Positions 21,940 through 45,218 of a stretch of 64,000 nt of DNA are shown here, piece by piece. Source of the DNA: an uncultured Clostridia bacterium. GTDB taxonomy: Bacteria; Bacillota; Clostridia; Christensenellales; Borkfalkiaceae. Under the pieces are notes generated by a model. The model did not search any database, was not told the origin of the DNA, and saw only the letters and a list, made by a program, of their open reading frames with translations. How positions within the stretch are numbered: position 1 is the stretch's first letter; each line of letters opens with the position of its first letter. The position numbers and the translations under genes were made by a program. The stretch spans positions 1-64,000 of the forward strand of contig CANQUN010000005.1 in the NCBI GenBank assembly GCA_947627065.1, written 5' to 3'.

Positions 21940-21949
21940 TGTGCGTTTT

Positions 21950-25656: not shown

Positions 25657-26507
25657 CCAAACGTAAACGCCGTTACGGCATAGACTCCGACTGGGCGCAG
25701 AGCATCCTGTTCGTGCTGCTTGGAATTTCCACCTTCCTCGTGCTGCTGCCCGTGCTCATCACGGTGATGCTGTCGCTCAAACCCAACGGCGACTTTGTTA
25801 CCAAAAACATCTGGGCGCTGCCGTCCTCGCTGGAATTCAGCAACTACTCCTACGCATTTTACGAGATACTCGGCAACATGTTCAACACGCTGTGGATAGA
25901 CGTCGTGTCCACCGTGTCGGTTACCCTGCTCAGCGCGTTCTCGGCGTACATCTTTGTGAGAAAGAAGTTTCCCGGCAGGAACTTCCTGTTCTACATGGTG
26001 ATAATCCCCACCATGTGCCCGGGCATCGTCTATCTCACGGCGCAGTACCTCAACATTGTCAATCTGGGGCTTTTCGGCACCTATTGGGCGCTGTACCTGC
26101 CTTATCTTGCGGGCAACCAGATAGGCTCCATATTCCTTTACAGAACGTTCATGTCCCAGCAGCCCGAGGATATCTACGAGGCGGCGAGGATAGACGGCGC
26201 GGGGGACTTCCGCATCTTCTTCACGATATGCCTGCCCCTGTCCGTGGGAATACTCATGGTTCAGTCCATCGGTATATTCTCGGCCATATACAACGACTAT
26301 CTGTGGCCCATGATGATGTTTGTGGGAAGGCCCGAAAAATCCACCCTCATGCCCGTCCTGCGGGAACTTGCCAATTCCGCGGGGGCGGAAGCCAAGGGCG
26401 CGTCCTACGCCCTGTACCTGCTCAGCGGCATTCCGCTGCTCATCGCCACGGCAATAAGCCTCAAATTCTCCATCTCGGGCGAATTTGCCGCCGGGCTTAA
26501 ATATTGA
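25653..26507 (+). CDS. MalG-type ABC sugar permease
   Basis: A 284-residue inner-membrane permease with six predicted spans and the EAA motif EDIYEAARIDGAGDFRIFF for contact with the ATPase. The start is the ATG in an ATGA overlap with the MalF-type gene; a longer frame from 24849 is antisense-like noise inside the upstream gene. It pairs with the propeller-bearing permease and with the binding protein 52 bp downstream to form a family 1 carbohydrate importer. Confidence 0.92.
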   Translation: MTKRKRRYGIDSDWAQSILFVLLGISTFLVLLPVLITVMLSLKPNGDFVTKNIWALPSSLEFSNYSYAFYEILGNMFNTLWIDVVSTVSVTLLSAFSAYIFVRKKFPGRNFLFYMVIIPTMCPGIVYLTAQYLNIVNLGLFGTYWALYLPYLAGNQIGSIFLYRTFMSQQPEDIYEAARIDGAGDFRIFFTICLPLSVGILMVQSIGIFSAIYNDYLWPMMMFVGRPEKSTLMPVLRELANSAGAEAKGASYALYLLSGIPLLIATAISLKFSISGEFAAGLKY

Positions 26508-26559
26508 CAACCCAACAAAGAGAATATCGTCAACCCAAAATAAAAGAGGAGAAATATAT

Positions 26560-28296: not shown

Positions 28297-28298
28297 CC

Positions 28299-30578
28299 AT
28301 GGATAACGCTTACGACCCCCGCGCCGACGTCCGAAAGGGAACCTTCACCTTCACCGACGCGCACACGGGCAAGGAATGGCTCAACATACTCTGGAACGGC
28401 TTGGGCTACCAGACCGCCGTTACCCACACGGGAACGTACACCGCCTCCTACACCGCCGAGGACAACGAGAAGATAAACCTCAACGGAGAGCGCACGGGCG
28501 TGGTGTACATTCTCGACAGAGAAAGCGGCGGCTACTTCAGCCCGGGCGGCTACCCGTGCGGGCGCATTCCCGAAAATTACCGCTGCACCCACGCGGGGCA
28601 ATACACGTCGATAATGTGCGAAAAAGGGGGGATATGCGTTGAAATCACCTACGCCGTCCACCCGAAAGAACTGTGCGAACTGCACGCCGTAACGCTCACC
28701 AACCGCAGCGGCCGCACGCGTTCGTTCACGGCTATCGAGGGCACGGTTTTCGACCTCGGCGGCTATCCCATGCCCTTCTACTACAACGCGCCCACGACTT
28801 CTGCCACCGAATACGTTGAGGAAGCCAACGCCGTGCTCTGCCTGTCCGCCAACCCGTACGGAAACTTTACCCACAAGAGCGGGTTTGTATTGAGCGCCGA
28901 ACGCCCGTCCCACACGGCGGGGAATTTGGGCGACTTTCTGGGCGTTGCGGGTTCGCTCGCCGTGCCCGAAGCGCTCGAGCGGGGCGCTAACCTGCCCGAC
29001 ACATTCGCCACCGTCCGCGAAAGGTGCGGCTTGCTCCAGCACGACATCACGCTTGCGGACGGCGAGGAGCGCACGCTGTGTTACGCGCACGGGTTCGTTG
29101 AGGACAGGACCGACCTCCTGCGGCTGGCCGCCCGCCTCCGCGGCGAATTTCCCGGGATTATCGGGAGAATCAAAGGGGAAGAGAACCCCTTCATGGGGCT
29201 TTCCACCCGCTCGCCCGAGCGGCAGATAAACACCGTTATGAACGGCTGGGCGCAAAAGCAGACGATATTCTGCGGAATAGGCAAAAAGGCCGTGCGCGAC
29301 AACGCCCAACTTGCCATGGCGTACCTCAACTTCGACCCCGCTGCCTGCAAGCGCACGCTCGGCGAATGCTTCGCCCACCAGTACGCGGACGGGCACGCCA
29401 CGCTGCTGTGGTACCCCGTGTCCGACCCCGACCTGTACAGCGACCCCGCCTTCTGGCTTTACATCGCCGCGGCGGAATATCTCAAGGAGACGGGCGACGA
29501 GGCGTTTTTAGATGAAATATACCCCTACGAGGACGGGGGCGAAGGCACTGTCAAAGAGCACCTTGCCGCAGCCGTAAATTGGTACACAAACCCCCTAAAT
29601 CACGGAAAAAACGGGCTTTTCAAGATTTTCAAAGCCGATTGGAACGACGCTTTGAACATCCCCGACAAGGACGCGGAATCGGTGTTTGCTTCCGAATGCG
29701 TGTGTTACCTTCTGAAAGAGGCCGCCCTTCTTGCCGCACACCTCGGCGACGAGGCGCGCGCACGCGAATTGATAGAGGAAAAGAACGCCCTCGCCGCAAG
29801 GATAAACAAGGCGGCCTTCAACGGAGAATACTACGTCAGAGCCTTGTCGGCCTTCGGCAAGGTGGGGGACAGAGGGGCGCAGGGCGGCTCCTTCTACTTC
29901 AATCCCCAGAGTTGGGCCATACTTTCTGGCATAGTGCCCAAGGATAAACTGCCCGCCCTGTTTGCCGCCATGGACGCGCGGGAGACGGACGACGGCGTTG
30001 CAATCTGCGTTCCGCCCTACCCAAAATACGACAAAACCGTTGGCAGAATGAGCGGAATGCTGCCCGGCGTGTACGAGAACGGCGGCATTTACAACCACGC
30101 GGGCTGTTTCAAGGTGATGGCCGACTGCGCCGCCGGCAGAGCCGAAAACGCCGTTGCCACCCTTCTTAAAATCCTGCCCGACGGCAAACACAACCCCTCG
30201 TCGCACACGGGGCTGGAACCTTACGTTTTTTCAAACTGTTACTTAAAGCACCCCACGGTGGACATGCGGGTGGCGTCGTCGTGGCAGACGGGAACTTCGG
30301 CGTGGGGGCTGAGGTGTTATTACGAGGGCATCCTCGGCATAACCCGCCGCTACGGCGGGCTGGAAATAAAGCCGTGCATACCCCAGAGTTGGCAGCGGCT
30401 GACCGCCGTGAGACCCTACCGCGGGGCAACGCTGGAGTTTGAATACAAGCGCGTGGGCAAGGGCGATAAAGCGGAAGTTTACCTTGACGGCAAAAAGACC
30501 GAAAACGGCTTTATATCCGCCGATAATGTGAGAAATAGGGCACATTCCGTTACCGTGTGCGTTGGAGAAAAGAGATGA
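28299..30578 (+). CDS. GH94-family glycoside phosphorylase
   Basis: A 759-residue cytoplasmic enzyme without signal peptide. The architecture is that of GH94: an N-terminal beta-sandwich with GGYFSPGG and GQYTSIMCEKG, then an (alpha/alpha)6 barrel with KADWNDALN near residue 447 (the DWND motif carries the general-acid Asp) and ASSWQTGTSAWG, the phosphate-side WxTGT-type motif. Such enzymes cleave a beta-glucoside with phosphate to give sugar 1-phosphate, saving ATP. The acceptor cannot be read from the sequence. It sits in the importer operon and overlaps the GH1 gene by ATGA. Two copies of the dispersed DNA motif (28609, 30521) lie inside it. Confidence 0.85.
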   Translation: MDNAYDPRADVRKGTFTFTDAHTGKEWLNILWNGLGYQTAVTHTGTYTASYTAEDNEKINLNGERTGVVYILDRESGGYFSPGGYPCGRIPENYRCTHAGQYTSIMCEKGGICVEITYAVHPKELCELHAVTLTNRSGRTRSFTAIEGTVFDLGGYPMPFYYNAPTTSATEYVEEANAVLCLSANPYGNFTHKSGFVLSAERPSHTAGNLGDFLGVAGSLAVPEALERGANLPDTFATVRERCGLLQHDITLADGEERTLCYAHGFVEDRTDLLRLAARLRGEFPGIIGRIKGEENPFMGLSTRSPERQINTVMNGWAQKQTIFCGIGKKAVRDNAQLAMAYLNFDPAACKRTLGECFAHQYADGHATLLWYPVSDPDLYSDPAFWLYIAAAEYLKETGDEAFLDEIYPYEDGGEGTVKEHLAAAVNWYTNPLNHGKNGLFKIFKADWNDALNIPDKDAESVFASECVCYLLKEAALLAAHLGDEARARELIEEKNALAARINKAAFNGEYYVRALSAFGKVGDRGAQGGSFYFNPQSWAILSGIVPKDKLPALFAAMDARETDDGVAICVPPYPKYDKTVGRMSGMLPGVYENGGIYNHAGCFKVMADCAAGRAENAVATLLKILPDGKHNPSSHTGLEPYVFSNCYLKHPTVDMRVASSWQTGTSAWGLRCYYEGILGITRRYGGLEIKPCIPQSWQRLTAVRPYRGATLEFEYKRVGKGDKAEVYLDGKKTENGFISADNVRNRAHSVTVCVGEKR

Positions 30579-31915
30579 ACGAACCGAAATTCGGCAAAAA
30601 CTTCATATTCGGGGCGGCCACCTCGGCGTACCAGATAGAAGGCTCGCCCGCGGCCGACGGCAAGGGTCTTTCGGTGTGGGACGTGTTCTGCCACACTCAG
30701 GACACCGTGTACAACCACGACGACGGCGACCGCGCCTGCGACTCTTACCTCCGCTGGCGGGAGGACGTTGAACTGCTTGCCTCCCTCGGCGCGGACGCTT
30801 ACCGCTTTTCTGTTTCTTGGCCGCGCGTCCTGCCCGAAGGCGCGGGCAAACCCAACCCCAAGGGGCTGGATTATTACAAAAAACTGTGCGACGCACTGCT
30901 TGAAAAAGGCGTGCGCCCGTGCGTAACCTTGTACCATTGGGACATGCCGTACGCGCTCAGTCTGAAAGGCGGGCTGATGAACCGCGATTTTGCGGGCCGG
31001 TTTGCCGATTACGCCGCCGTTGTGGCCCGTGAACTCGGGGACAGGGTGTCGCTTTACTTTACGTTCAACGAACCCGAATCCATCGTCGGTGCGGGCTATT
31101 GCTACGGCGCGTTCGCCCCGGGCTGCAAGTTCGGGGACAGGGGGAGTTTCCCCGCCGTGCACAACCTGCTGCTCGCCCACGGAGACGCGGCGCGCATTCT
31201 GAAAGACATGGGCAAAGAGGTCGGTGCGGTGTGCAGCGGCCCCGCGCCCTACCCCGCGGACGAAAAGGACGGCGAACTCGTGCGGCTTGTGGAAAAACAA
31301 CTCGCCTCTCCCGAATTCGTGTGGAGCACGCCCAACATATTCGACCCCATCTTCTTGGGAGATTACAGCGCGGAATTTTACGCAAAATACCGAAAGGAGG
31401 CCGAACGGACGATAAAACAGGGCGACCTTGCGCGCATTGCGGGAAACACCGATTACTGCTGTATCAACCACTACAGCGGCTACCCCGTTATCCGCAAGGG
31501 CGAAGGGCTTGAAAAACTCCGCCGCCCGTCGGGTTCTCCGCTCATGGCAAACGGCTGGGACGTGGACGAAAAGGGTATTTACTGGACGCTCAAATTCCTT
31601 TACGGCAGGTACAAAAAGCCGCTCATGCTCACCGAAAACGGCATGGACTGCCACGACATTCCGTCCTCGGACGGGGTGCACGACGCCGCGAGAATCGACT
31701 ATTTCAGGCGTTTTCTCACCCAATTGAACCGTGCGGCGGCGGACGGGGCGGACATACGCGCCTACTTTGCGTGGAGCCTTTTGGACAACTTTGAATGGCT
31801 TGCGGGCTATTCAAGCCGTTTCGGGCTTGTGTACGTGGACGCCCAAACCTGCAACCGGATCCCCAAGGATTCCTTCTACTATCTGCAACGGATATTTTCC
31901 GACAGGAATAAATAG
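30575..31915 (+). CDS. GH1 family beta-glucosidase
   Basis: A 446-residue cytoplasmic retaining beta-glycosidase, full length. The GH1 N-terminal signature reads NFIFGAATSAYQIEGS. The acid/base Glu166 is in TFNEP and the nucleophile Glu354 is in LTENG. The C-terminal WSLLDNFEWLAGYSSRFGLV segment is the substrate-binding signature (E-W pair). The start is the ATG in an ATGA overlap with the GH94 gene. As the last gene of the operon it would finish degradation of imported beta-linked oligosaccharides. Confidence 0.95.
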   Translation: MNEPKFGKNFIFGAATSAYQIEGSPAADGKGLSVWDVFCHTQDTVYNHDDGDRACDSYLRWREDVELLASLGADAYRFSVSWPRVLPEGAGKPNPKGLDYYKKLCDALLEKGVRPCVTLYHWDMPYALSLKGGLMNRDFAGRFADYAAVVARELGDRVSLYFTFNEPESIVGAGYCYGAFAPGCKFGDRGSFPAVHNLLLAHGDAARILKDMGKEVGAVCSGPAPYPADEKDGELVRLVEKQLASPEFVWSTPNIFDPIFLGDYSAEFYAKYRKEAERTIKQGDLARIAGNTDYCCINHYSGYPVIRKGEGLEKLRRPSGSPLMANGWDVDEKGIYWTLKFLYGRYKKPLMLTENGMDCHDIPSSDGVHDAARIDYFRRFLTQLNRAAADGADIRAYFAWSLLDNFEWLAGYSSRFGLVYVDAQTCNRIPKDSFYYLQRIFSDRNK

Positions 31916-32046
31916 CATTTCCCACAGAAATGAATTGCAACTTTACGGAGGTGAAGAGAGGGCAAATTTAATCTGTAACAACCAAGGCTCCGCATTCCGC
32001 CCCAAGCGGATTGCCAATAACAAAAAAATTAAAAAAGGAGAAAATC
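31916..32046 (+). other. Short spacer before the first Cys-Ser-Gly protein
   Basis: A strong Shine-Dalgarno-like GGAGGTGAA at about 31947 has no start codon at working distance, so no small gene is called. AAAAAGGAG at 32033-32041 serves the ATG at 32047. Confidence 0.5.
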
Positions 32047-34299
32047 ATGAAAAACAGAACCAAAACATTCTTACTGAGCGCGTTGTTCGCGCTCCTCACG
32101 GGTGCGCTGTGCCTCGGCGTGGCCGTTCCTTCCATAACGGCCGCCGCGTGGAGTTCGTGGACAGATGCACAAGAACATCTCGTTGACGTAACGGAACTTA
32201 GTTACGACGCAAACGGCTGGGAAACCAACCTTGCAACGGGCGCTTGGCAGCACGGCGGCAAAGCCACCGAAATCTCCGGCGGTATGACCAAAATAACCAC
32301 CCAGACCCAAGGCGCTTTAATCAACAACGTGAAACTCGACATAACGGGCGGCAAGGCTGCCAGCGTCAAGTTCACCCTCAACAGCGAGGGCGCAGCCAAG
32401 GACGACGGCGGCGGAATCTGGTTCATGCTCGTTACCGAAGAGATGTACCTTTCGGGCCAGAGGCTCAACCCCTCCGCCAACCAGAGGAACGGTCTGCCCG
32501 TGGCGGTCAATTTCGCCGCCGAGGACGACAACGTAAAGTGGAACCTCATCCACTACGAACACAACGGTTTCAGCGAAGCCACGACCAAACTTTCGGGCAA
32601 CGACGCCACCGCCGAACACACCATGGTGTTCTACCCCGGTGCCGGCGGTACGGACAAGTCCTTCGTCATGGTTGACGACCAGCTGCTCTACGCACCCAAC
32701 TTCAACGTTTCCGCGTTTGAAAAGGAAGGAACCTACTCCGCGTACATCTACGTGTTCCAGAAGATGACCGACGCCACCCTGACCATAGGCAAGCCCGAGG
32801 TTATCGAAAAACCCAACGCTTGCGCCGTGGAACTGCCCGCTACCAAACGCATTGACGTGGGCGGCGAAGGCGTTACCTTAACCCCCGTACCCAACCCCGC
32901 GCTCGAAGGGGCGGACGCAACTTACGAATGGGAGACCTCGGCCCAGGGCGTCGCCACCGTTGAGGGCGGCACCGTAGTGGGCGTTACGGCGGGCACCGCC
33001 AACATAACCGTAAAGGCCATGGTGGGCGGCGAACAGGTCGCAAGCGCAACCTGCGTCGTTACCGTGTGCGACTACGACGAGAGCGGCTGGCTCAAAAACG
33101 CTTCTGCGGGCGCCTGGGGCATAGGCGTCAAGGACGGCGTTGTAACCACCCAAAACGGCAACAGCACCTTTACGGTGGGCAACTCCAACGAAGTGTGGAA
33201 CAAGAACGCCATCGACCTCTCCTCGGGCATAGTAACCTTCGATTACACCCTTGCAAGAGCGTCGGGCGCCACCGATTGGCTGCTCTTTGACCTCATGACC
33301 GAGGCCGAACTCGAAAGGGGAGAACGCGTTTCCAACGCCAACTCTTCTAAAATTGCATTCTACACTCACAACGACAGCGCCGCCCCCGCCAACGAACGTC
33401 TCGTTTCGGGCGAAGCGGGCAAGACGTGGAACGCGGGCTGCGAAAAGACCAACCGCGTTGTCATATACCTCGGCGCCGAGGCGGGCACCTCGTATATAGC
33501 CATAAACGGAACCAAGATAATGTACAGCGCCACGCTTGACGATTATAACACCGATAACGGTTACAAGGCATATCTGCAGATGTTCCCGTCCTTCGACGCG
33601 ACCGAGATAACCGTTTCCGAAATCAGGACGGGCGCCGCCGTACTCGTAACCGAGGACAGCATTTCCATGCAGGTCGGCGAAACCAAGACCTTCGACTACG
33701 AACTCGTGGGCGCAGACAGCGCCGAAGTTACCCTTGCCGACGAAGGTATCGTCTCCCTCGACGCTGACGCCAAGTCGGTTACGGGCCTCATGAAAGGCAC
33801 CACCAAAGTCAACGTTACGGCGGGCGGATACACGGCTTCCATAACGGTTGAAGTGGGCGACATAGTAGTTGACGACATAACCCTTTCGCTCAGCGGACAG
33901 GTTGAGATGAAGGTGGGCGACACGCTTGAGATTTCCTTTACCGTAACGCCCGACAACTACACCGAAGCGCTCGACGTTTTCTGGACTTCGGGCAAGACCA
34001 GCCGCGCCACCGTCACGCAGGATCCCGACGACCCCACCAAGGCCACCATCAAGGCCGTTGGCGAAGGTATCGTTGACATTTCCGTAGAGGTTAACGGCAT
34101 AACCAAATCGGTAACCATCAACGTTTCCGCGGCCTCCGCTCCCGACAGCGGCTCGGCTTCCGACACGGGCAGCAGCACCACTCCTTCGGCAAGCGAAGAT
34201 AACGGCGCCGCATGCTCGGGCGGAATAGGCGCGGGCAGCCTCATCGGCCTGTTCACTCTCGCCGCCGGCGCGATGCTCAAAAAGAAGAAAAACGCCTAA
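32047..34299 (+). CDS. Secreted Ig-like (Big2-type) repeat protein with C-terminal Cys-Ser-Gly anchor
   Basis: A 750-residue secreted protein. A signal peptide (cleavage near ITAAA) precedes two copies of a concanavalin-like beta-sandwich (about 35-250 and 345-535; compare SYDANGWETNLATGAWQHGG with DYDESGWLKNASAGAWGIGV). Bacterial Ig-like group 2 domains intervene and follow: GVTAGTANITVKAM, then SMQVGETKTFDYE and EMKVGDTLEISFTV. The tail is a Ser/Thr linker, AACSGG, a hydrophobic stretch GSLIGLFTLAAGAML and KKKKNA. The enzyme function, if any, is not recognised; surface glycan binding is likely. The next two genes carry the same type of tail. Confidence 0.8.
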   Translation: MKNRTKTFLLSALFALLTGALCLGVAVPSITAAAWSSWTDAQEHLVDVTELSYDANGWETNLATGAWQHGGKATEISGGMTKITTQTQGALINNVKLDITGGKAASVKFTLNSEGAAKDDGGGIWFMLVTEEMYLSGQRLNPSANQRNGLPVAVNFAAEDDNVKWNLIHYEHNGFSEATTKLSGNDATAEHTMVFYPGAGGTDKSFVMVDDQLLYAPNFNVSAFEKEGTYSAYIYVFQKMTDATLTIGKPEVIEKPNACAVELPATKRIDVGGEGVTLTPVPNPALEGADATYEWETSAQGVATVEGGTVVGVTAGTANITVKAMVGGEQVASATCVVTVCDYDESGWLKNASAGAWGIGVKDGVVTTQNGNSTFTVGNSNEVWNKNAIDLSSGIVTFDYTLARASGATDWLLFDLMTEAELERGERVSNANSSKIAFYTHNDSAAPANERLVSGEAGKTWNAGCEKTNRVVIYLGAEAGTSYIAINGTKIMYSATLDDYNTDNGYKAYLQMFPSFDATEITVSEIRTGAAVLVTEDSISMQVGETKTFDYELVGADSAEVTLADEGIVSLDADAKSVTGLMKGTTKVNVTAGGYTASITVEVGDIVVDDITLSLSGQVEMKVGDTLEISFTVTPDNYTEALDVFWTSGKTSRATVTQDPDDPTKATIKAVGEGIVDISVEVNGITKSVTINVSAASAPDSGSASDTGSSTTPSASEDNGAACSGGIGAGSLIGLFTLAAGAMLKKKKNA

Positions 34300-34559
34300 A
34301 TCTCACAAAAACGGCACTAAAACCGCGGCGGGGAGCATTCCCCGCGGCGGCTTGCCGCCCTGTCAAAACACCCTTGCGGGCGGCGGACAACCCCGCTGCT
34401 TTACAAACACTCTTGCGGGCGCAAGCCCGCGGCTTTACAAGCGCGGACAATCCCGTTGCTTTACAAACACTCTTGCGGGCGACATACCCGCCCGCGGCAC
34501 CACGATTGACGGGAAAGGCCCGTCTCACACCGTTTCGCATCTTTGCGGAGGAAAATAAC
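34300..34559. repeat. Non-coding spacer with a 38-bp direct repeat in 60-bp phase
   Basis: CGGACAACCCCGCTGCTTTA plus the following 18 bases (34384-34421) recur at 34444-34481 with two mismatches. A weaker partial copy is at about 34361-34380. The start of the region overlaps a GTGNGWWWWAGG copy (34294-34317, minus) that spans the preceding stop codon. GGAGG at about 34546 serves the next ATG. Confidence 0.65.
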
Positions 34560-36797
34560 ATGAAAAGATTTTTTAGACGTATAGGCCTGGCTTTGGCCCT
34601 CGCCGTGTTTGCGGCGTGCTTTACCTTTGCGGGTGTTTCGGCTTACGCCGCCGAACCCGCGCTGTCGTTTGCGGGAGACGCACCCCAGTTCAAACTCACT
34701 TACGGTGCGATAACCGAGGACGTTACCGTTCCCTTTGTTTACGGCGGAAGCGGCACGCTCACCCTCACCCGCAGTTACGCCCCCGAAAAGGGCAACTATT
34801 CCTCGCACGACGCCGACTATCCGCTCTCCCAAGGCACCGACTACACGGTGTCGGGCGGCACGCTTACCATAAAGAAGGAGTACCTTTCGGGGCTTGAACA
34901 GGGCACTTTCTGGTACAAACTCACGGACGGCGCCTCGTTTGTGGAATTTCCCGTGTTCATCGGCTACAGCGGAGGCTGGGCGGTGCGTTCTGCCCGCGGG
35001 GAAATAACCCCTTCCGCCTACGGCGACAATTACGCGGACATCTCCTTGAACGGCTACCACAACGACAGGGAGGGCGGCAGCATGAACGGCGAGTACGAAC
35101 GTACGGGACGCGCCGTTTACACCGACCCATTAGACGTTACCAAGCCCATCTTCATCGAATACACGGGCTATGACGCGGGCGGATGGATACTGTTCAACTT
35201 CAACAGCGATCCCTTTGCCTCCGAATACGCCAACGAAATAGTCATGACCGAAGATCCCGCCACTTCGGGCACGCCGGGCGTGATAAAGATACTCGACATG
35301 GTTGACAACGGCGGCGAGCCTCAGCGTTTCGGCGGAAGCGCGGGCTTTATCACCAACAACGTCGTCAACGTGGGTTCTTACAAAAACAGAAACAACTCCA
35401 ACGTGGTGGAAATTTACGTTGGAGAGACTGCCGAACAGAGTTACATCAGATATAACGGCAACGACCTGACCGCGGGTTTTGCAAGCACGGGCGCCGTAGA
35501 ACTCGTGCGCAGCAGTTTCCCCGAAGGGCAGGCATGGCTGAGCATTCTCTGCGGCACTCCCACGGACTTTACCGTAAACAAGACCCTTAACGCTCCCGCC
35601 GTGTACTATCCCGAGGGTGAACCCGAATACACCCTCAAAACCGATGACGACGTGCGATTCCGCGTGCACAACGTGGACGGCGGCTTTGACATCTACAACG
35701 GAGACGAACGTCTCGAGAAGGATGTCGACTATTCCGTTCAGGGCGACAGGGTAACCGTATTCGGTTCTTACATGAAAACCGTCTCCTTCACCTCCACCGT
35801 CAAGTTCACGGTCGTGGGCGGCGGCAAGTCCACCGTGGTGAGAATACCCGCTTCCGTTCCCGACGGAACGAGCGGCGCAACCCTCGCGCAGGGCGAAAAC
35901 GGCGTGCGCGTGTTTGAAGGCGGAGACATGACCTTCAACGTCGATTTCAAGGGCGAAACTTTCGTCAACGTAATAGACGCGGAAACCTACGCCCCGCTCG
36001 ACGCAGCCCTCGCTTCCGTTCAGGGCTCCGCACTCACTCTCTCGGCGGCCGCCGTTTCGGGCAGAGCGCACGGAACGTACAGATTCCTCATCCAGACCGA
36101 GGGTAGCCTCGTACCCGTTTACGTAATACATTACGGCTTTGCAAACGGCTATGCCGCAAGCGGCGTTGAAGTAACCCGCTCGGGCGGTAAATACACCGTT
36201 TCGGGCACGGGCTCGTTGGTGTTTGCGGACTTTGTCGACCTCGGCGCGGGCGTGAACTTCGGACTTAAGATAACAAGTACGCCCGGTTATTACAACAGCG
36301 GCTTCGGCGACCGCGACGCTTACGTCGAACTTGCCTTTGCCGACATAACGGGCCGCAAGACCGTAACGGTCAGGATTCGCCCCAACGCCGAGGACAGCGA
36401 CCCCCGCGTGCGCAACAAACTGTACGCCGAGGTTGAACTTTCGGACGGCGACGGCAACGTTGTAAGGCAGAATTCCGCGCCGCTGCGTCTCAATCTTGCG
36501 GACGAACAGACGCTGGCAATTTCGGTCTCGGGCGGAACGCTGTCCGTAACCGTTGGCAGCGAACCTTCGGTGCAGATAAACGTCGGCGACTTCAACGCGG
36601 AAAAACTCCTGCTGTCGGTCAACACGGCCGAGGACATGGGTTACACGCTTGCCACTTCGCCCGCTCCCGACGCGCCCTCGACGGGCGATACGTCCACCGA
36701 AGAAAAGGGCGGCTGCAGCGGCGGCATGGCGGCACAAACTGCCGTTTTAGCCGCGATTTGCGGGGTTTCTGCCATTTTGCTCAAGAGGAAGAAATAG
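34560..36797 (+). CDS. Secreted beta-sandwich/X2-like protein with C-terminal Cys-Ser-Gly anchor
   Basis: A 745-residue secreted protein with a signal peptide (cleavage near VSAYAA). Domain one (about 30-145) resembles the X2/Ig-like modules of cellulosomal proteins: DYTVSGGTLTIKKEYLSGL. A related segment occurs around residue 380 (DVDYSVQGDRVTVFGSYM). Between and after them are lectin-like beta-rich regions (FVDLGAGVNFGLKITSTPGY). The tail reads linker, KGGCSGGMA, hydrophobic TAVLAAICGVSAILL and KRKK. No catalytic motif is recognised. It begins after the repeat-containing spacer and is followed after 6 bp by the glycerophosphodiesterase gene. Confidence 0.75.
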   Translation: MKRFFRRIGLALALAVFAACFTFAGVSAYAAEPALSFAGDAPQFKLTYGAITEDVTVPFVYGGSGTLTLTRSYAPEKGNYSSHDADYPLSQGTDYTVSGGTLTIKKEYLSGLEQGTFWYKLTDGASFVEFPVFIGYSGGWAVRSARGEITPSAYGDNYADISLNGYHNDREGGSMNGEYERTGRAVYTDPLDVTKPIFIEYTGYDAGGWILFNFNSDPFASEYANEIVMTEDPATSGTPGVIKILDMVDNGGEPQRFGGSAGFITNNVVNVGSYKNRNNSNVVEIYVGETAEQSYIRYNGNDLTAGFASTGAVELVRSSFPEGQAWLSILCGTPTDFTVNKTLNAPAVYYPEGEPEYTLKTDDDVRFRVHNVDGGFDIYNGDERLEKDVDYSVQGDRVTVFGSYMKTVSFTSTVKFTVVGGGKSTVVRIPASVPDGTSGATLAQGENGVRVFEGGDMTFNVDFKGETFVNVIDAETYAPLDAALASVQGSALTLSAAAVSGRAHGTYRFLIQTEGSLVPVYVIHYGFANGYAASGVEVTRSGGKYTVSGTGSLVFADFVDLGAGVNFGLKITSTPGYYNSGFGDRDAYVELAFADITGRKTVTVRIRPNAEDSDPRVRNKLYAEVELSDGDGNVVRQNSAPLRLNLADEQTLAISVSGGTLSVTVGSEPSVQINVGDFNAEKLLLSVNTAEDMGYTLATSPAPDAPSTGDTSTEEKGGCSGGMAAQTAVLAAICGVSAILLKRKK

Positions 36798-38905: not shown

Positions 38906-39733
38906 TTATTGCTTCTTTCGGTACTGCAATGGGGTGAGGCCCATGCGGCGTTTGAAGGCGCGTATGAAGTAGTTGTAGTCGGCAAAGCCCGACTCTTCGG
39001 CCACCCGCGTTATGGGCAGGGTGGTTTCGGTAAGCAGGCCGATGGAAATGCCGATGCGCTTGTTTAAGATAAATTCGCCCACGGAGGTGCCGAACTCGCT
39101 GCCGAACAGGCGGTAGAGGGCGTTTTTGGAGAGAAAGAACCTTTCGCACAGCATGCCCGTGCTCAGTTTTTCCTTGATGTGTTCGGATATGAATTGGTCG
39201 ATTCTTACCGAAAGCATGCTTCGGTTGTGGCGGATAAGCCCGTCCTCCCAAAAGTTTTCTATGAGGATTATGAGTATCTCCTCGAGGGCCTTGAGCCGCT
39301 CGCCGGAGACAATCTGAAGTTTGTCGTAAAGCGGCAGCGTCTCTTTGGGGTCAATGCCGTAGCGGCGGGCGGCGCCTTCTGCAAATTCCCGCGTGGAAAA
39401 TCTGCCCGCCTCGTCCCGAAACTGCCCTATCTGCATGTACGCGATGAGCGTTTCCTCATAGTACACGGGCATGATGGTCTCCATGAGCCCCGCGTGGCAG
39501 GTGTAAGAAACCGCGCCCTTGCCCTTGAGGTCGGCCATGTGCGTCAGGTTGGAAAGGTTGCACCGTTTAACGCATTCCTTTTCCTCTCTTATGCGGTTGC
39601 AGTAATCCGAGCGGATGGGCGAGGTGGCCACCACGTTGGTCTCCGAGTCGTAAAAAGTTACGGCAATCCCCGTGGAAACGTAAAAGTCGTAAAGTATCCG
39701 CTTTATCCTTTCGGCGTTGAAGATGTAGTTCAT
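38906..39733 (-). CDS. PocR-domain AraC-family regulator
   Basis: A 275-residue regulator. The N-terminal domain matches the PocR sensory family: EKECVKRCNLSNLTHM, then GAVSYTCHAGLMETIMPVYY with its conserved Cys residues. The C-terminal domain is a double helix-turn-helix of AraC type (LCERFFLSKNALYRLFGSEF; ITRVAEESGFADYNYFIRAF; KRRMGLTPLQYRK). I start it at the ATG at 39733; a longer frame to 39778 enters the promoter. A copy of the dispersed motif (38883-38905) abuts its stop codon. It is divergent from the sugar-acid operon at 39892 and is probably its regulator. Confidence 0.88.
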   Translation of the reverse strand: MNYIFNAERIKRILYDFYVSTGIAVTFYDSETNVVATSPIRSDYCNRIREEKECVKRCNLSNLTHMADLKGKGAVSYTCHAGLMETIMPVYYEETLIAYMQIGQFRDEAGRFSTREFAEGAARRYGIDPKETLPLYDKLQIVSGERLKALEEILIILIENFWEDGLIRHNRSMLSVRIDQFISEHIKEKLSTGMLCERFFLSKNALYRLFGSEFGTSVGEFILNKRIGISIGLLTETTLPITRVAEESGFADYNYFIRAFKRRMGLTPLQYRKKQ

Positions 39734-39766
39734 AAAAACCTTGAAAAGTTGGATTTTTATAAAAAC

Positions 39767-39795
39767 ATTATAAAACATCTCAAAAAAAATGTCAA
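39767..39795 (-). promoter_or_regulatory. Consensus promoter of the PocR-AraC gene
   Basis: On the minus strand: TTGACA (39795-39790), 17 bp, TATAAT (39772-39767). Both hexamers are perfect, the same arrangement as for the other AraC gene at 19846-19874. Confidence 0.85.
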
Positions 39796-39891: not shown

Positions 39892-40554
39892 ATGGATATC
39901 AGAATTTTGCTTGAAGCGGCGGCCGCCGCGTACAAAAAGTTTGCCGAGGTCTTCGATTACGGAATCCCTTGCGGGGAGATGTTCAAACCCTTTCTCGCAA
40001 GTGTGGAAAATACGCTTGGCACCCACGAGATTCTCTACGATTTTCTGTGCGGAAAGGACGCCGCCAATATTGACGGAGTCAGCCGCGGCTACATTCCGCG
40101 CAGGGGCGACGCCGTGCTCATAGACGTCAGCATAGGCAAGGACGGCGTGTGGTGCGACGTGTGCCGAACCTTCTTTGTGGGTGAAATTCCCGCCGACATG
40201 CGTGCCGATTACGCGCTGGCCCTGTCGTCTCTCCGCGCGGGCGCAAGCGCTCTGCGGGACGGGGCTGCCGCCCGCGACATTTACGCCGCCGCCAACCGTC
40301 CTTACGCCGAGGCGGGCAGAAGGCTCGTTCACCACGCGGGGCACGCCGTGGGTGCGTCTCCCGTCATGGAACCGCGCTTTACCGAGGACGCGGACGGGCA
40401 TGTCCGTGCGGGGCAGACGGTTACCGTGGAAACGGGGCTGTACGGCAGGTCGGGCATAAGGCTGGAAAACGATTTTTTAATTGAAAAAAACGGAGCGGCA
40501 GACCTCTTTGAGGACCTTCTTCCGCTCGATATCGAGGAGTATATTCTTAAATGA
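39892..40554 (+). CDS. M24-family metallopeptidase-like protein (catalytic domain only)
   Basis: A 220-residue cytoplasmic protein with the pita-bread fold of Xaa-Pro peptidases and creatinase. Metal ligands are visible: two Asp in LIDVSIGKDGVWCDVCRTF, His in VHHAGHAVGASP, and Glu in VETGLYGRSGIRLEND. The N-terminal domain of Xaa-Pro peptidases is absent, so it is only about 60 percent of their length. It is the first gene of an operon for sugar-acid metabolism, where a peptidase is unexpected. It may act on an amide or aminoacyl-modified substrate; that is a guess. Confidence 0.75.
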   Translation: MDIRILLEAAAAAYKKFAEVFDYGIPCGEMFKPFLASVENTLGTHEILYDFLCGKDAANIDGVSRGYIPRRGDAVLIDVSIGKDGVWCDVCRTFFVGEIPADMRADYALALSSLRAGASALRDGAAARDIYAAANRPYAEAGRRLVHHAGHAVGASPVMEPRFTEDADGHVRAGQTVTVETGLYGRSGIRLENDFLIEKNGAADLFEDLLPLDIEEYILK

Positions 40555-41369
40555 ACAAGTACCTTTCGGGTTCCTTCGCCGTGCTGATGACCCCCTTTGC
40601 CGGGGACGCTGCGGACGAGGCGACCTTTGCGAAACAGGTCAACAGACTGAAAGATTCCCGCGTTTCGGGCGTGGTTACTTCGGGCAGCACGGGAGAGTTT
40701 GTGCAACTCTCGCTTGCCGAGCAGATGAACCTCACCGAAATCGCCGCCAAAGAGAAGGGAGACAAGAAACTCGTGGTCGGCGCGTGCACGGGCAACGCCG
40801 CGGACACGCTTAAAATCTGCCGCCACGCCGCCACGGTAAACGCGGCCGCCGCCCTCGTCTGCCCGCCTTATTATTTCAGATACACGGCGGCGGAAATCGA
40901 AAAGTTTTACCTCACCGTCGCCGAATCCTCGCCCGTCCCCGTCATGCTCTACAACATTCCGTTCTTCACGCAAGAACTCGAACTTTGTGTGATTTACCGC
41001 TTGTTTGAGCATGACAACGTGGTTGGGATAAAGGACAGCAGCGCCAACATGAAGCGTCTCCAGCACCTCGTGGCGGCGGCAGATAGCACCCCCGTTTCCG
41101 TACTCACGGGCACGGACGACATACTCCTGCCCGCTCTTGCAGGCGGCGTCAGCGGCAGCATGACCGCGCTTGCCTGCATAATGCCGGACGCCGTGGCGGA
41201 CATTTACGCCGCCGTTGAATCGGGCGACATCGCCGCCGCCCGCAAACTCCAACTCGCCATACTCCCGACGCTTGCAAAAGCGGATGCGGAAACCTTTCCC
41301 AAGGGCTACAAACGGCTCATGGAAGAGGTCAGCGGAATGAAGTTCGGAGACAAGGAGGACAAGATATGA
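40551..41369 (+). CDS. DapA-family aldolase (2-keto-3-deoxy sugar acid aldolase-like)
   Basis: A 272-residue TIM-barrel class I aldolase of the dihydrodipicolinate synthase/N-acetylneuraminate lyase family. The family motifs are GSTGEF, the YNIP catalytic Tyr region, and the Schiff-base Lys in VGIKDSS. It overlaps the previous gene by ATGA and the dehydrogenase by ATGA. Family members differ in substrate. Next to a dehydratase and a dehydrogenase, cleavage of a 2-keto-3-deoxy sugar acid to pyruvate and an aldehyde is the most likely role. Lysine biosynthesis is unlikely in this setting. Confidence 0.85.
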   Translation: MNKYLSGSFAVLMTPFAGDAADEATFAKQVNRLKDSRVSGVVTSGSTGEFVQLSLAEQMNLTEIAAKEKGDKKLVVGACTGNAADTLKICRHAATVNAAAALVCPPYYFRYTAAEIEKFYLTVAESSPVPVMLYNIPFFTQELELCVIYRLFEHDNVVGIKDSSANMKRLQHLVAAADSTPVSVLTGTDDILLPALAGGVSGSMTALACIMPDAVADIYAAVESGDIAAARKLQLAILPTLAKADAETFPKGYKRLMEEVSGMKFGDKEDKI

Positions 41370-42391
41370 AAGCAGCCATGTGGAAGGGTCGGGACAACGT
41401 TGAAATAGTGGACATTCCCATCCCTTCGATAGGAGAGGAAGAAGCCTTGCTCAAGGTTCGTGCGGCGGGCGTTTGCGCCACCGATTACCACATAATCTCC
41501 GGCAAACTCAAGATAGGCCGCGCACCCAACGTTCAGGGGCACGAGATTTGCGGAGAAGTGGTTGAAATAAAGACCAAGCGCACGGACATCGCCGTCGGGC
41601 AGCGGTGCGTGGTGGCAACGTCGGTCGGCTGCGGCCACTGCGAATATTGCAGGGAGGGCAAGCAGTACATCTGCAACGAGAGCGGCGAGATAGGCTATTA
41701 CCCATATTACGGGGGATATGCCGAATACGTCAAGGTTCCCGTTTCGGCCATCGTGCCCATTTCGGACAAAGTAAGCGACAGGGCCGCCGCCATACTCGAA
41801 AGCACGGTCTGCCCCACCGAATCGCTCATGCGCATAGGCATTCCGCTCGCGGGCACGGTAGTCATCGCGGGCACGGGTCCCGCGGGGCTGGCGTTCATTC
41901 TCCTTTCCAGGATAATGGGCGCGGGCAAGATCATAGTGCTCGTGAGGGACGAAAAGTCGGAGATCCGCGGCAAGAAGTTCGGAGCGACGCACATCGTCAA
42001 CATAAAAACCTGCGACCCGAAGGCCGAAGTTTCAGCCATAACGGGGGGGCTTATGGCGGACGTGGTGATCGAAGCCACGGGCGCCAAGCCCATGATAGAA
42101 TCCATGCCGGATTACGTGAAAAAGGGGGGTAATATCATTTTGTACGGCATTCCGTCGGATGAGGATGAGATAACCTTCCCCGTTAAAAAACTCATCGTGG
42201 AGGAGATTTCCGTTCACGGTGCGGTGGGCAACACCAAGGCGTGGTACCCGCTCGTCAAACTCATAGAAAACGGCACGCTCGACCTCGAACCGCTCATAAC
42301 TCACGAGTTCGCCCTCGAGGACATAAACAAGGCCTTTGACCTTTACAGAAACCACGACAAGACGCTAATCAAAGCGATAATAAAATTTTAA
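41366..42391 (+). CDS. Zinc-dependent medium-chain alcohol/sugar dehydrogenase
   Basis: A 341-residue MDR-family oxidoreductase. Catalytic zinc ligands are Cys in AAGVCATDYH and His-Glu in QGHEICGE. The structural-zinc Cys cluster is CGHCEYCREGKQYIC. The nucleotide-binding motif is GTGPAGLA. Related enzymes include sorbitol, galactitol and threonine dehydrogenases. In this operon it would oxidise a sugar or sugar alcohol before dehydration. It overlaps the aldolase gene by ATGA and ends 9 bp before the dehydratase. Confidence 0.9.
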   Translation: MKAAMWKGRDNVEIVDIPIPSIGEEEALLKVRAAGVCATDYHIISGKLKIGRAPNVQGHEICGEVVEIKTKRTDIAVGQRCVVATSVGCGHCEYCREGKQYICNESGEIGYYPYYGGYAEYVKVPVSAIVPISDKVSDRAAAILESTVCPTESLMRIGIPLAGTVVIAGTGPAGLAFILLSRIMGAGKIIVLVRDEKSEIRGKKFGATHIVNIKTCDPKAEVSAITGGLMADVVIEATGAKPMIESMPDYVKKGGNIILYGIPSDEDEITFPVKKLIVEEISVHGAVGNTKAWYPLVKLIENGTLDLEPLITHEFALEDINKAFDLYRNHDKTLIKAIIKF

Positions 42392-42400
42392 GAGGCAGAT

Positions 42401-43522
42401 ATGAAGATAACCGATATCGAAGTAGTCATCGTCCGTCAGGACAACGTAAAGATGATTGGAGACGGCAGTCAGGACACGGCGGTCGTCCTCGTCCACACCG
42501 ACGAGGGAATCACGGGCATTGGAGAAGTGGACAGTTCGCCCGAAGTGGTAAAAGCCATAGTTGAGGCGCCCGCTTCCCACGACCAGTGCAGGGGTTTGAA
42601 GGAGATTCTCATCGGCGAGGACCCCACCAACATCGAATACCTCTGGTACAAGATGTACTATTACAGTTACTACTACACCCGCCGCAGCGTTGGCATTCAC
42701 GCCATGAGCGGCATAGACATCGCCCTTTGGGACATAACGGGCAAAAAGTACGGCCTGCCCGTTTCCAAACTTCTGGGCGGAAACTTCCGCACCAAGATTC
42801 CCGCCTACTGTTCCGTGCTCATGCCGGGCACCAAAGAGGAGATTGACGAACTCGTGGCGCACCACCGCGCCGACTGCAACTACCACGGTTACAAGTTCGG
42901 ATGGGGCGCGCTCGGCGAAAGTGAGGAAAAGGACGTTAAACTCGTGGAGTATTGCCGCGAGGCCGTGGGCGACAGCCGCCTCATGATAGACATAGGAATG
43001 CGTTGGACGGACTACAAGTACGCCTTGCGCGTTTCGAGAGAATACGAAAAGCAAAAGATCTATTGGCTTGAAGAACCGTTTGCACCCGACAGGACGGAAG
43101 ATTTCGGCCGCCTTGCGGACAACATCGAAATATCCCTTGCCTCGGGCGAAGAATTCGGCACCATGTACGAATTCCGCGACATGCTCGATAACGGAAAGGT
43201 GGACATAGTTCAGCCCGACATGAGCCGTTGCGGCGGCATAACCATGGCAAAGAAGATTGCGGACATGGCGCAACTGCGTGGCAAAAAACTCATTCCGCAC
43301 GCCTTCAAAACGGGCATTCTCATGGGTGCCACGCTCCAGCTCATAGCCGCCATTCCCAACGCGGACATGCTCGAATACTGCGCGCAGGAGACCGTGCTCA
43401 GCAAAAACCTCGTCCGCCATCACTTCCGTTTGGATAAGGACGGCAACGTTACCATTCCCGACATTCCGGGCATTGGCGTAGAACTCAACGAGGAAATTCT
43501 CGAAAGATACAGGAGGAAATAA
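42401..43522 (+). CDS. Enolase-superfamily (mandelate racemase group) acid-sugar dehydratase
   Basis: A 373-residue enzyme with the N-terminal capping domain (VVLVHTDEGITGIGEV) and a TIM barrel. The catalytic Lys region is GYKFGWG. Metal ligands are Asp in LMIDIGMRW, Glu in WLEEPF and Glu in ASGEEFG. The catalytic His is in LIPHAFKTGI. This set is typical of acid-sugar dehydratases, which make 2-keto-3-deoxy acids from aldonates. It is flanked by the dehydrogenase and a PIG-L deacetylase. The precise sugar cannot be assigned. Confidence 0.9.
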   Translation: MKITDIEVVIVRQDNVKMIGDGSQDTAVVLVHTDEGITGIGEVDSSPEVVKAIVEAPASHDQCRGLKEILIGEDPTNIEYLWYKMYYYSYYYTRRSVGIHAMSGIDIALWDITGKKYGLPVSKLLGGNFRTKIPAYCSVLMPGTKEEIDELVAHHRADCNYHGYKFGWGALGESEEKDVKLVEYCREAVGDSRLMIDIGMRWTDYKYALRVSREYEKQKIYWLEEPFAPDRTEDFGRLADNIEISLASGEEFGTMYEFRDMLDNGKVDIVQPDMSRCGGITMAKKIADMAQLRGKKLIPHAFKTGILMGATLQLIAAIPNADMLEYCAQETVLSKNLVRHHFRLDKDGNVTIPDIPGIGVELNEEILERYRRK

Positions 43523-43523
43523 C

Positions 43524-44228
43524 ATGAACGTACTTGCAGTGGGTTGTCATCCCGACGATCTTGAAATCAACTGCGGCGGAACGCTTGCCAAATGCGCCCG
43601 CCGAGGCGACAAAGTTACCATGGTTGCCCTTGCCAACGGCAGCGCGGGGCACAAGGTGTATTCCAAGGAAGAAATAGCCAGAATACGCCTTAAAGAGGCG
43701 ACGGAGTCCGCCGCCGTCATCGGTGCCGAATACATCTGTTTGGGTCTTGACGACATGTTCGTCCGCCGTGATTACGACGAGGGCGTGCGCAAGGTTTCCG
43801 ACGTGATAAGGCGTGTAAAACCCGACTTTATCATCACGCACGGCGAACATGAGTACATGGTTGACCACAGCATAACCAGCACCATCGTGTTCGACGCGAC
43901 TATGGCCGCCACCGTCAGCCACTATCCGTCCGACTATCCCGAATACGACAGATTCACCCCAATCTACTACATGGAAAACACCTTTATGGTAAATTCTTTC
44001 CCCGAAGAATTCGTGGACATAACCGACGACATAGACACCAAGATAGAGATGTATTCCCACCACAAGAGTCAGGCCGAATGGCTGAAAGTGCACGACAACT
44101 TCGACATGGTTGAAACCATCCGCTGCTTCGCCCGCACGCGCGGCCTGCAGTGCGACACCGGCTATGTCGAAGGGTTTACGCTCTGCAAGCAGATTCACCA
44201 CCTGCCCACCAAGAGATACCTGCCATGA
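43524..44228 (+). CDS. PIG-L/LmbE-family deacetylase
   Basis: A 234-residue zinc-dependent N-deacetylase. The signature is CHPDD (AVGCHPDDLEINCGGTLA), with the third zinc ligand probably His in VDHSIT. Family members act on N-acetyl sugars, such as GlcNAc-inositol, or on diacetylchitobiose. It starts 1 bp after the dehydratase stop codon region and overlaps the epimerase-like gene by ATGA. Its presence suggests that the pathway's substrate carries an N-acetyl group. Confidence 0.88.
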   Translation: MNVLAVGCHPDDLEINCGGTLAKCARRGDKVTMVALANGSAGHKVYSKEEIARIRLKEATESAAVIGAEYICLGLDDMFVRRDYDEGVRKVSDVIRRVKPDFIITHGEHEYMVDHSITSTIVFDATMAATVSHYPSDYPEYDRFTPIYYMENTFMVNSFPEEFVDITDDIDTKIEMYSHHKSQAEWLKVHDNFDMVETIRCFARTRGLQCDTGYVEGFTLCKQIHHLPTKRYLP

Positions 44229-45121
44229 CCGTCGGCAAGTGCTTTTTCAAAAACCTGCCCGCCCTGTTTGCAGAGGACGGCTGCCGCGCCGTGATTCTGC
44301 CGGGTGAAGGGGGCAAGATTGCCTCTTTTACCGATGAAAAAGGCCGCGAATACCTCCTTTGCAACCCCTCGCCCGTCTACCTTCACACGGGCGGCGGCGC
44401 TTACGAAAAGTGCGATTGCAGCGGCTTTGACGACATGTTTCCCACCATCGACGAGGCGCGCGTTTTGCGGGCGGACGGCAAGGAACTTGTCTATCCCGAC
44501 CACGGAGAAGTGTGCCGCAACCCCTTCGATTACGAGGTGAAGGACGGGGCAATCTCCATGAGTTTCCGCTCCTACGCCTTCGGTTACGACTATTTCAAGA
44601 CCGTCCGCGCCGAAAACGGCACCGTTGTCATAGACTACCGCATAGTCAACACGGGGAAGTACCCGCTGAACGCCCTGTGGGCGGCGCATTGCCTCGTTCC
44701 CATCGAAAACGGCGGCTCGGTCGTCAGTTCTTATCCCGACGATGCTATGGCGGAAATGGTCTCGGGCACCGTCGCCTCGTTTACCCAAAATGCCGTTTTT
44801 TGTGCGAAAAAGGCGGCTTTTACCCAAATGGGAGGGGAGAAGAGGAGCGGGAAATATTACTTTCTCCCACCCTCGGGCGGCGGCTTTGTCGGCTATCGCT
44901 ACGCCGACGGCAGGACGTTTTACATCGAGTACGACAAGGAGATTCTTCCCGAACTCGGCGTCTGGCAGAACGAGGGCGCGCTTAACGGCGCCTGCTGCGT
45001 CGGGCTGGAACCTTGCACCCTCGCTTACGACTCCGTGGTAAACGCCAAGGCCCGCGGAACCGAACGGCCGATACCCGCGGGCAAGTCCCTCGAATTCACG
45101 CTGAGGCTCGGCGTAAAATAA
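44225..45121 (+). CDS. Aldose-1-epimerase-like beta-sandwich protein
   Basis: A 298-residue protein of the galactose-mutarotase-like fold: GGKIASFTDEKGREYLL at the N-terminus, GGGAYEKCDCSGFDDMFPTI with an acidic cluster, and WAAHCLVPIENGG, where the His is at the place of the mutarotase base. It starts at the ATG in an ATGA overlap with the deacetylase; a longer frame is not supported. It probably interconverts anomers of the pathway sugar. A terminator follows at 45129. The dispersed motif GTGCGAAAAAGG lies inside the gene at 44801. Confidence 0.75.
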   Translation: MTVGKCFFKNLPALFAEDGCRAVILPGEGGKIASFTDEKGREYLLCNPSPVYLHTGGGAYEKCDCSGFDDMFPTIDEARVLRADGKELVYPDHGEVCRNPFDYEVKDGAISMSFRSYAFGYDYFKTVRAENGTVVIDYRIVNTGKYPLNALWAAHCLVPIENGGSVVSSYPDDAMAEMVSGTVASFTQNAVFCAKKAAFTQMGGEKRSGKYYFLPPSGGGFVGYRYADGRTFYIEYDKEILPELGVWQNEGALNGACCVGLEPCTLAYDSVVNAKARGTERPIPAGKSLEFTLRLGVK

Positions 45122-45128
45122 CAAAAAG

Positions 45129-45158
45129 CGGCGTATTTCTCACAAAAACGCCGTTTTT
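45129..45158 (+). terminator. Terminator of the sugar-acid operon
   Basis: CGGCGT...ACGCCG stem followed by TTTTTT. The loop contains TTTCTCACAAAA, again the dispersed motif in terminator form. Confidence 0.85.
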
Positions 45159-45218
45159 TCATGCCCTGCCGCTCTGCCCTTTGCCTGATTTTTGCGCTCC
45201 GCGCGGCATGTCAAACGC

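Follow-up and report, generated by a model that had tools for sequence, protein, structure and literature searches.

What might a gut bacterium do with an operon that joins a dehydrogenase, a dehydratase and an aldolase of sugar type to a protein with a peptidase fold, a putative deacetylase and an epimerase-like protein? The question is raised by positions 39892-45121 on the forward strand of a 64,000-nucleotide stretch of DNA (the window) from an uncultured Clostridia bacterium of the Borkfalkiaceae; the window lies on contig C5 (CANQUN010000005.1) of a 1.95-Mb assembly in 104 contigs. The close relatives of this organism are metagenome-assembled gut Clostridia of sheep, goat, buffalo and deer, plus Candidatus Borkfalkia. 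A first-pass annotation, made from the sequence alone, had proposed a six-gene operon for successive deacetylation, oxidation, dehydration and retro-aldol cleavage of an acetylated sugar or sugar acid.

Here, we argue that the operon specifies an oxidative, non-phosphorylative sugar pathway of the 'Route I' type, with Sulfolobus-like enzyme families, a reading to which we give a probability of roughly 0.58. The analysis establishes which genes are present, how they are conserved and co-occur, their folds and the residues of their active sites; each reaction, the order of the reactions, the substrate and, above all, the role of the M24-fold protein are inferred. The module itself is real, selected and conserved. 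Most likely it varies on non-phosphorylative sugar routes that are already known, with an unusual partner in the M24-fold protein.

A conserved core of four genes

All six open reading frames (ORFs) are present in one operon, as judged from ORF calls and Pfam matches. The predicted six-gene unit is borne out by these ORFs, by their close spacing, by the recurrent core order described below and by an intrinsic (Rho-independent) terminator at 45125-45160 (+), whose hairpin sits after the last stop codon (fold of 45119-45166: -14.8 kcal/mol, z -4.45, with a U-run). The ATGA overlaps first described are found at three junctions (M24/DapA, DapA/MDR and PIG-L/epimerase, each overlapping by 4 nt) but not at the other two, where the genes are close, with gaps of 9 nt between the genes for the medium-chain dehydrogenase/reductase (MDR) and the enolase-superfamily protein and of 1 nt between the enolase and PIG-L genes.

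How much of this arrangement is kept elsewhere? A scan for the enolase in 84,980 species genomes gave 17 close loci beyond the window, the fragment L026 and two acidobacterial relatives (L024 and L025) with unrelated surroundings. Together, the 17 close loci, the window and L026 make up 19 near loci, among which the enolase is the most conserved gene of the operon (80-93% identity). Of the 17 close loci, 16 share the gene order M24-DapA-MDR-enolase; a contig end cuts inside the M24 gene at L008, and L017 (genome G452) has no M24 gene. Moreover, five distant Clostridia from four families carry the same quartet in three orders that differ from that of the window: ENO-M24-MDR-DapA (L063), M24-MDR-ENO-DapA (L064 and L066) and ENO-M24-DapA-MDR (L065 and L067), where ENO is the enolase. 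The conserved unit is therefore named here as these four genes, encoding the M24-like protein, the Zn-dependent MDR, the enolase-superfamily dehydratase and an aldolase of the dihydrodipicolinate synthase/N-acetylneuraminate lyase (DHDPS/NAL) type; PIG-L and the epimerase are accessory to the quartet.

The tie between the M24 protein and the enolase was surveyed at class level in 391 genomes, with a short M24 defined by E below 1e-35 and an open frame of 215-240 aa, and a quartet-level enolase by E below 1e-140. The two occur in exactly the same six genomes, and in all six they belong to a single tight cluster that also holds an MDR and a DHDPS-type protein. Under independence, the chance of six identical genomes would be 2e-13, a figure that relatedness weakens; a functional link between M24 and enolase is argued by the other five genomes, since these span four families with shuffled gene order. 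Phylum and order searches with a widened M24 profile (A7) yielded mostly full-length prolidases and no further quartets.

Purifying selection acts on each of the six genes. In comparisons with the relatives, synonymous change has reached saturation, the proteins retain 40-92% identity, and the ratio of nonsynonymous to synonymous change (pN/pS) runs from 0.08 to 0.6 (0.08 for the enolase, 0.09-0.27 for PIG-L, up to about 0.6 for the epimerase). Because the proteins are kept in the face of saturated synonymous sites, and because the core order recurs in 16 other near loci, the operon is not a product of chance. A literature search found no paper describing this gene combination.

The M24-fold protein

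The first gene (39892-40554, +) encodes a short M24-fold protein of 220 aa (PF00557, 93 bits) without the creatinase-type N-terminal domain; its Pfam and phmmer matches are restricted to the C-terminal catalytic part of prolidases of 340-400 aa. The structural model (predicted local distance difference test, pLDDT, 96) has the pita-bread fold of prolidases, with a TM score of 0.87 to their catalytic half. To this extent the original description as a trimmed M24 peptidase was accurate, but peptidase activity is unlikely. While the metal ligands D78, D89, H151, E180 and E192 are invariant in an alignment of 15 sequences from the near and distant sets, the two prolidase histidines taken to be catalytic in the M24 family have been lost from every one of the 15: position 61 is D, E or G, and position 159 is never His (positions referred to the PHH and VHEEP motifs of the Pyrococcus prolidase aligned by phmmer). 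Judged by these losses, the protein is probably no peptidase.

The same losses bear on a quite different reading of the operon, namely the catabolism of amides or hydroxy-amino acids, in which the M24 and PIG-L proteins would act as amidohydrolases and the enolase as an epimerase or a hydroxyproline-type dehydratase. The best-known members of the M24 and PIG-L folds are indeed C-N hydrolases, and the NCBIfam model of cis-3-hydroxyproline dehydratase matches the enolase weakly (79 bits, cut-off 500). It is difficult, however, to reconcile this scheme with the absence from 15/15 sequences of the histidines needed for M24 peptidase action, or with an enolase that scores far higher on sugar-acid dehydratase models, and the mutarotase partners discussed below would be left unexplained. 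We consider it very improbable.

What, then, would the M24 protein do in an oxidative sugar pathway? Its regular company of a sugar-type dehydrogenase and dehydratase suggests action on a sugar intermediate, and since the operon offers no other gene that could open the lactone, the protein is a candidate for the missing lactonase, an assignment that we consider less likely than not. The operon holds no lactonase of a known family, and SMP-30 (PF08450) and 7-bladed (PF10282) lactonases are absent from the genome; a full-length lactonase of one of these two types occurs in 5 of the 19 quartet genomes, and the remaining 14 have no full-length one of either type. With somewhat less assurance still, short M24-fold proteins may constitute a new class of non-peptidase sugar enzymes, most likely metal-dependent aldonolactonases, that is near-invariant in a previously undescribed Clostridial non-phosphorylative sugar pathway; this generalization should be regarded as doubtful.

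In Mageeibacillus sp. UBA1257 (L017:6066-8143), an Asp/Glu/hydantoin-racemase-family gene and an SBD_N/NBD_C gene replace the M24 gene. The SBD_N/NBD_C gene, of the four-carbon acid-sugar kinase type, lies upstream of the DapA gene and overlaps it.

The predicted dehydratase, aldolase and dehydrogenase

The fourth gene (42401-43522, +) encodes a putative acid-sugar dehydratase of the enolase (mandelate racemase/muconate lactonizing enzyme) superfamily (PF13378, 175 bits). D197/E224/E250, K165 and the D273-H300 dyad, presumably the metal ligands, lysine and dyad familiar from the mandelate racemase subgroup, are invariant in 16 sequences down to 41% identity. The best solved relative is 3sjn (319 bits), whose record assigns no function and for which a literature search found no paper giving one. 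Curated cut-offs exclude the galactonate, mannonate and arabinonate dehydratase equivalogs (187 vs 311, 158 vs 550 and 196 vs 650 bits, respectively), and likewise rhamnonate dehydratase. Indeed, neither the dehydratase nor the aldolase comes near the cut-off of any NCBIfam equivalog that it matches, and no named substrate fits. A close homologue of either enzyme with a known ordinary substrate, against which the first-pass annotation had staked its claim of an unassigned pathway, was looked for and not found.

Enolase relatives at 41-44% identity (L061:5765-9745, L062:5379-9260 and L086:7702-10396) adjoin transporters of the BCCT betaine/carnitine type, and the two of them that lie on plasmids also adjoin a second enolase-superfamily gene, which suggests a betaine-type substrate in that branch. 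The plasmid relatives (41%) with BCCT transporters gave no clue to the substrate of the operon.

The second gene (40551-41369, +) encodes a class I aldolase of the DHDPS/NAL family (PF00701, 156 bits), probably a 2-keto-3-deoxy acid aldolase. The Schiff-base lysine K161 and Y134 are invariant, and Arg138 of DHDPS is replaced by Phe (motif YNIPFFT). A plain DapA was considered and rejected on three grounds: the loss of Arg138, a TIGR00674 score below the cut-off (150.6 vs 206 bits) and a separate canonical DapA (YNVPART) elsewhere in the same genome (G000:C19).

The third gene (41366-42391, +) encodes the Zn-dependent MDR (PF08240/PF00107; Glu_dehyd_C at 38 bits, over the cut-off), presumed to be an aldose (or aldonate) dehydrogenase, in which the catalytic zinc site C37/H59/E60 and the structural zinc site C89/C92/C95/C103 are invariant. 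In another possible scheme, no aldose is oxidised: an imported aldonate or uronate would be interconverted by the MDR at C2, C3 or C5, as in pairs of the RspAB or idonate-dehydrogenase type, and then dehydrated and cleaved. The MDR matches models and structures of L-idonate 5-dehydrogenase and RspB type, although below the cut-off. A 51% relative of the enolase (L085) adjoins a TRAP transporter and a GntR regulator, and one module (L020) has a GntP-type permease beside it. The evidence that bears against the import of an acid comes from the sixth gene and from the neighbours of the module.

The mutarotase-fold protein and the case for an aldose

The sixth gene (44225-45121, +) encodes an accessory protein that reaches only 25.7 against Pfam DUF4432 (cut-off 32.5), but its AlphaFold2 model (pLDDT 90) has the galactose-mutarotase fold of an aldose 1-epimerase-like protein. 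The best Foldseek matches are 3k25, 3mwx (a putative galactose mutarotase) and 3nre (probability 1.0, E 3e-14, TM 0.71-0.76). H94, H156 and E263 are invariant in the alignment and are candidates for the catalytic His/Glu pair of mutarotases.

This protein occurs in 10 of the 19 near loci. At L019, L022 and L023, a true aldose 1-epimerase (PF01263; assigned by Pfam at L019 and L023, and by BLAST clustering at L022) adjoins the module instead, and an aldose 1-epimerase also stands at the cluster end of L063. In all, a mutarotase-type gene lies beside the module in 13/19 near and 1/5 distant loci, and the genes belong to two separate families. Because mutarotases recur and have been recruited from two distinct families, the pathway would seem to start from an aldose. 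The 13 near loci suit a reducing aldose rather than an aldonate, and several near loci adjoin glycosidases, not acid transporters (GH78 at L021, GH67-like at L009). The imported-acid scheme is for these reasons unlikely in our estimation, although it is the likeliest of the rivals to the oxidation of an aldose.

Which aldose is involved? The glycosidase neighbours vary, from those just named to GH94 and GH1 upstream in the window, and since the families differ between loci they do not name the sugar. At L065, the module has a glycerate kinase gene two genes away, which would make sense if the pathway released glyceraldehyde.

PIG-L as an accessory

The fifth gene (43524-44228, +) encodes an accessory hydrolase of the PIG-L (LmbE) family (PF02585, 95 bits), probably a de-N-acetylase or another Zn hydrolase. 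The HPDD motif (H9 P10 D11 D12) and the second zinc histidine, H115, are invariant. The score against BshB1 is 105 bits (cut-off 182), and the cut-offs of BshB1, BshB2, MshB and Mca all lie above the scores of this protein. Even the type of reaction could be a different one, because 4-oxalomesaconate hydratase (5cgz), which matches the window protein at 47 bits, is a member of the family too.

On an amino-sugar scheme of the kind first proposed for this operon, PIG-L would deacetylate an N-acetylated sugar or sugar acid, and oxidation, dehydration with loss of ammonia, and cleavage would follow. In its favour, PIG-L retains the residues for zinc binding and for the catalytic base, and loci that have the gene conserve it strongly; it follows the enolase in 10/19 near loci, an unrelated enolase/MDR/aldolase operon also has a PIG-L gene, and a deacetylase-first route exists for GlcNAc1A, with unrelated enzymes (PMC9537276). 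The comparison lends no support, however, to deacetylation as a step with which the pathway must begin: PIG-L is missing beside the module in 9/19 near and 5/5 distant loci, three of the near genomes (G447, G452 and G458) have no match of this family in the genome, and no deaminase is present. A pathway that begins with an amino sugar thus strikes us as improbable. Deacetylation of a modified form of the substrate is plausible, not as a core step.

Full-length PIG-L paralogues (40-48% identity) elsewhere in many of these genomes were considered as substitutes and rejected: they are part of a different gene cluster and so cannot save the deacetylation scheme. That cluster (L072:6888-13321 and L073-L079) joins the paralogue to a GFO/IDH dehydrogenase, a PfkB-like kinase, a class II aldolase of fructose-bisphosphate aldolase (FBA) type and a protein of ~315 aa (starting MDFNSTVKGS) without a Pfam match, and it resembles a separate unassigned sugar pathway.

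The proposed pathway

The order of steps that we propose begins with an aldose. The mutarotase-fold protein would present the right anomer of the aldose, which the MDR would oxidise to the aldonolactone; the metal-binding M24-fold protein would open the lactone to the aldonate; the enolase-superfamily enzyme would remove water to give the 2-keto-3-deoxy acid; and the DHDPS/NAL aldolase, through a Schiff base on K161, would split this acid into pyruvate and an aldehyde. PIG-L would be a lineage-specific addition that unmasks, probably by N-deacetylation, a modified form of the substrate. A non-phosphorylative route of oxidation, dehydration and retro-aldol cleavage, the central idea of the first-pass annotation, agrees with the enzyme families, with their active-site residues and with the repeated presence of a mutarotase; we regard it as plausible and as better supported than its rivals. 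The operon has no kinase or transporter, as had been noted before, and ORF calls and Pfam reveal no sugar kinase between 38906 and 45121.

Several observations weigh against this pathway or against the M24 protein as its lactonase. The closest models of the MDR are threonine and inosose dehydrogenases, not characterised aldose dehydrogenases, and the enzyme could oxidise a carbon other than C1. Some enolase relatives (41-51% identity) adjoin TRAP or BCCT transporters, which fits imported acids, not aldoses. No lactonase is known among the relatives of the M24 protein, aldonolactones can open without an enzyme, and genome G452 dispenses with the short M24, with the SBD_N/NBD_C kinase in its place.

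If the proposal is correct, sugar would enter pyruvate by a fermentative, ATP-independent route in gut Clostridia of ruminants and birds. The M24 link would show concretely how a peptidase fold can be put to use on sugars, and might account for the lactonase that is often missing, as it seems, from pathways of this kind.

Regulation and genomic surroundings

A divergent gene at 38906-39778 (-) encodes a regulator with a PocR sensory domain (PF10114, 108 bits) and an AraC helix-turn-helix domain (PF12833, 74 bits), and this protein would control the operon. A sigma-70 promoter of perfect consensus (TTGACA-17-TATAAT, 39795-39767) lies at the regulator gene, and 9 other near loci have a homologue of this gene, also divergent, beside the module. 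Scanning the window for Rfam families and tRNAs gave no matches.

Upstream of the operon, 19999-36797 is a glycan-use locus with likely ABC sugar transporter genes, a GH94 phosphorylase and a GH1 gene. It also encodes two paralogous proteins of ~600 aa; the one that starts at 19999 has no Pfam match, and the other starts at 21908. Large proteins (817-919 aa) that likewise match nothing in Pfam, possible unassigned glycosidases or lyases, stand beside the module at L016:4810-7263, L019:7499-10135 and L016:12953-15712; the first two are mutually homologous (cluster c24).

Comparison with known systems

It is in archaea and Proteobacteria that non-phosphorylative sugar routes are most familiar. 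Pathways of the Route I type employ an aldose dehydrogenase, a lactonase, an acid-sugar dehydratase and then an aldolase (PMC6336799). In Sulfolobus solfataricus, the D-arabinose/L-fucose and Entner-Doudoroff routes use MDR, enolase-superfamily and DHDPS/NAL enzymes, and the pentose cluster has no lactonase gene (PMC9795676). The operon studied here shares these three enzyme families, their logical order, the lack of a kinase and the lack of a lactonase gene of known family. The match is one of family, however, not of orthology (AraD_Arch, 196 vs a cut-off of 650 bits; archaeal 2-keto-3-deoxygluconate aldolase, 86 vs 390 bits), and the window adds M24, mutarotase and PIG-L proteins in hosts that are gut Clostridia.

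The L-fucose cluster of Campylobacter jejuni (Cj0480c-Cj0489) similarly brings together a DapA-type aldolase, a mutarotase, a dehydrogenase and a dehydratase (PMC6946681). In contrast to the window operon, its dehydrogenase is FabG-like, a hydrolase (Cj0487) and transporters lie in the cluster, and no M24 or PIG-L protein is listed (PMC6946681). For the M24 protein itself, a precedent for another reaction is provided by the dimethylsulfoniopropionate (DMSP) lyase DddP, a non-peptidase metalloenzyme of M24 fold that keeps its metal ligands (PMC4108388), as does the window protein. The latter differs in lacking the N-domain and in occurring only with sugar-type enzymes, and nothing in its sequence identifies it as DddP.

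A further comparison is with a parallel operon in other Clostridia, with genes for PIG-L, Amidohydro_2, MDR, enolase-superfamily and RraA-type aldolase proteins (L087:5445-10048 in G387, which holds the RraA-type aldolase; L088:983-4937 in G274; and, in part, L089:6019-7966 in G113). A distantly related enolase (35-36%) is again found with an MDR and PIG-L, but an amidohydrolase takes the place of M24 and the RraA-type aldolase that of the DapA type, so that the candidates for lactonase and aldolase are non-homologous in the two operons. Because this operon, too, combines PIG-L with an MDR and a related enolase, pathways of this kind have probably acquired PIG-L on more than one occasion.

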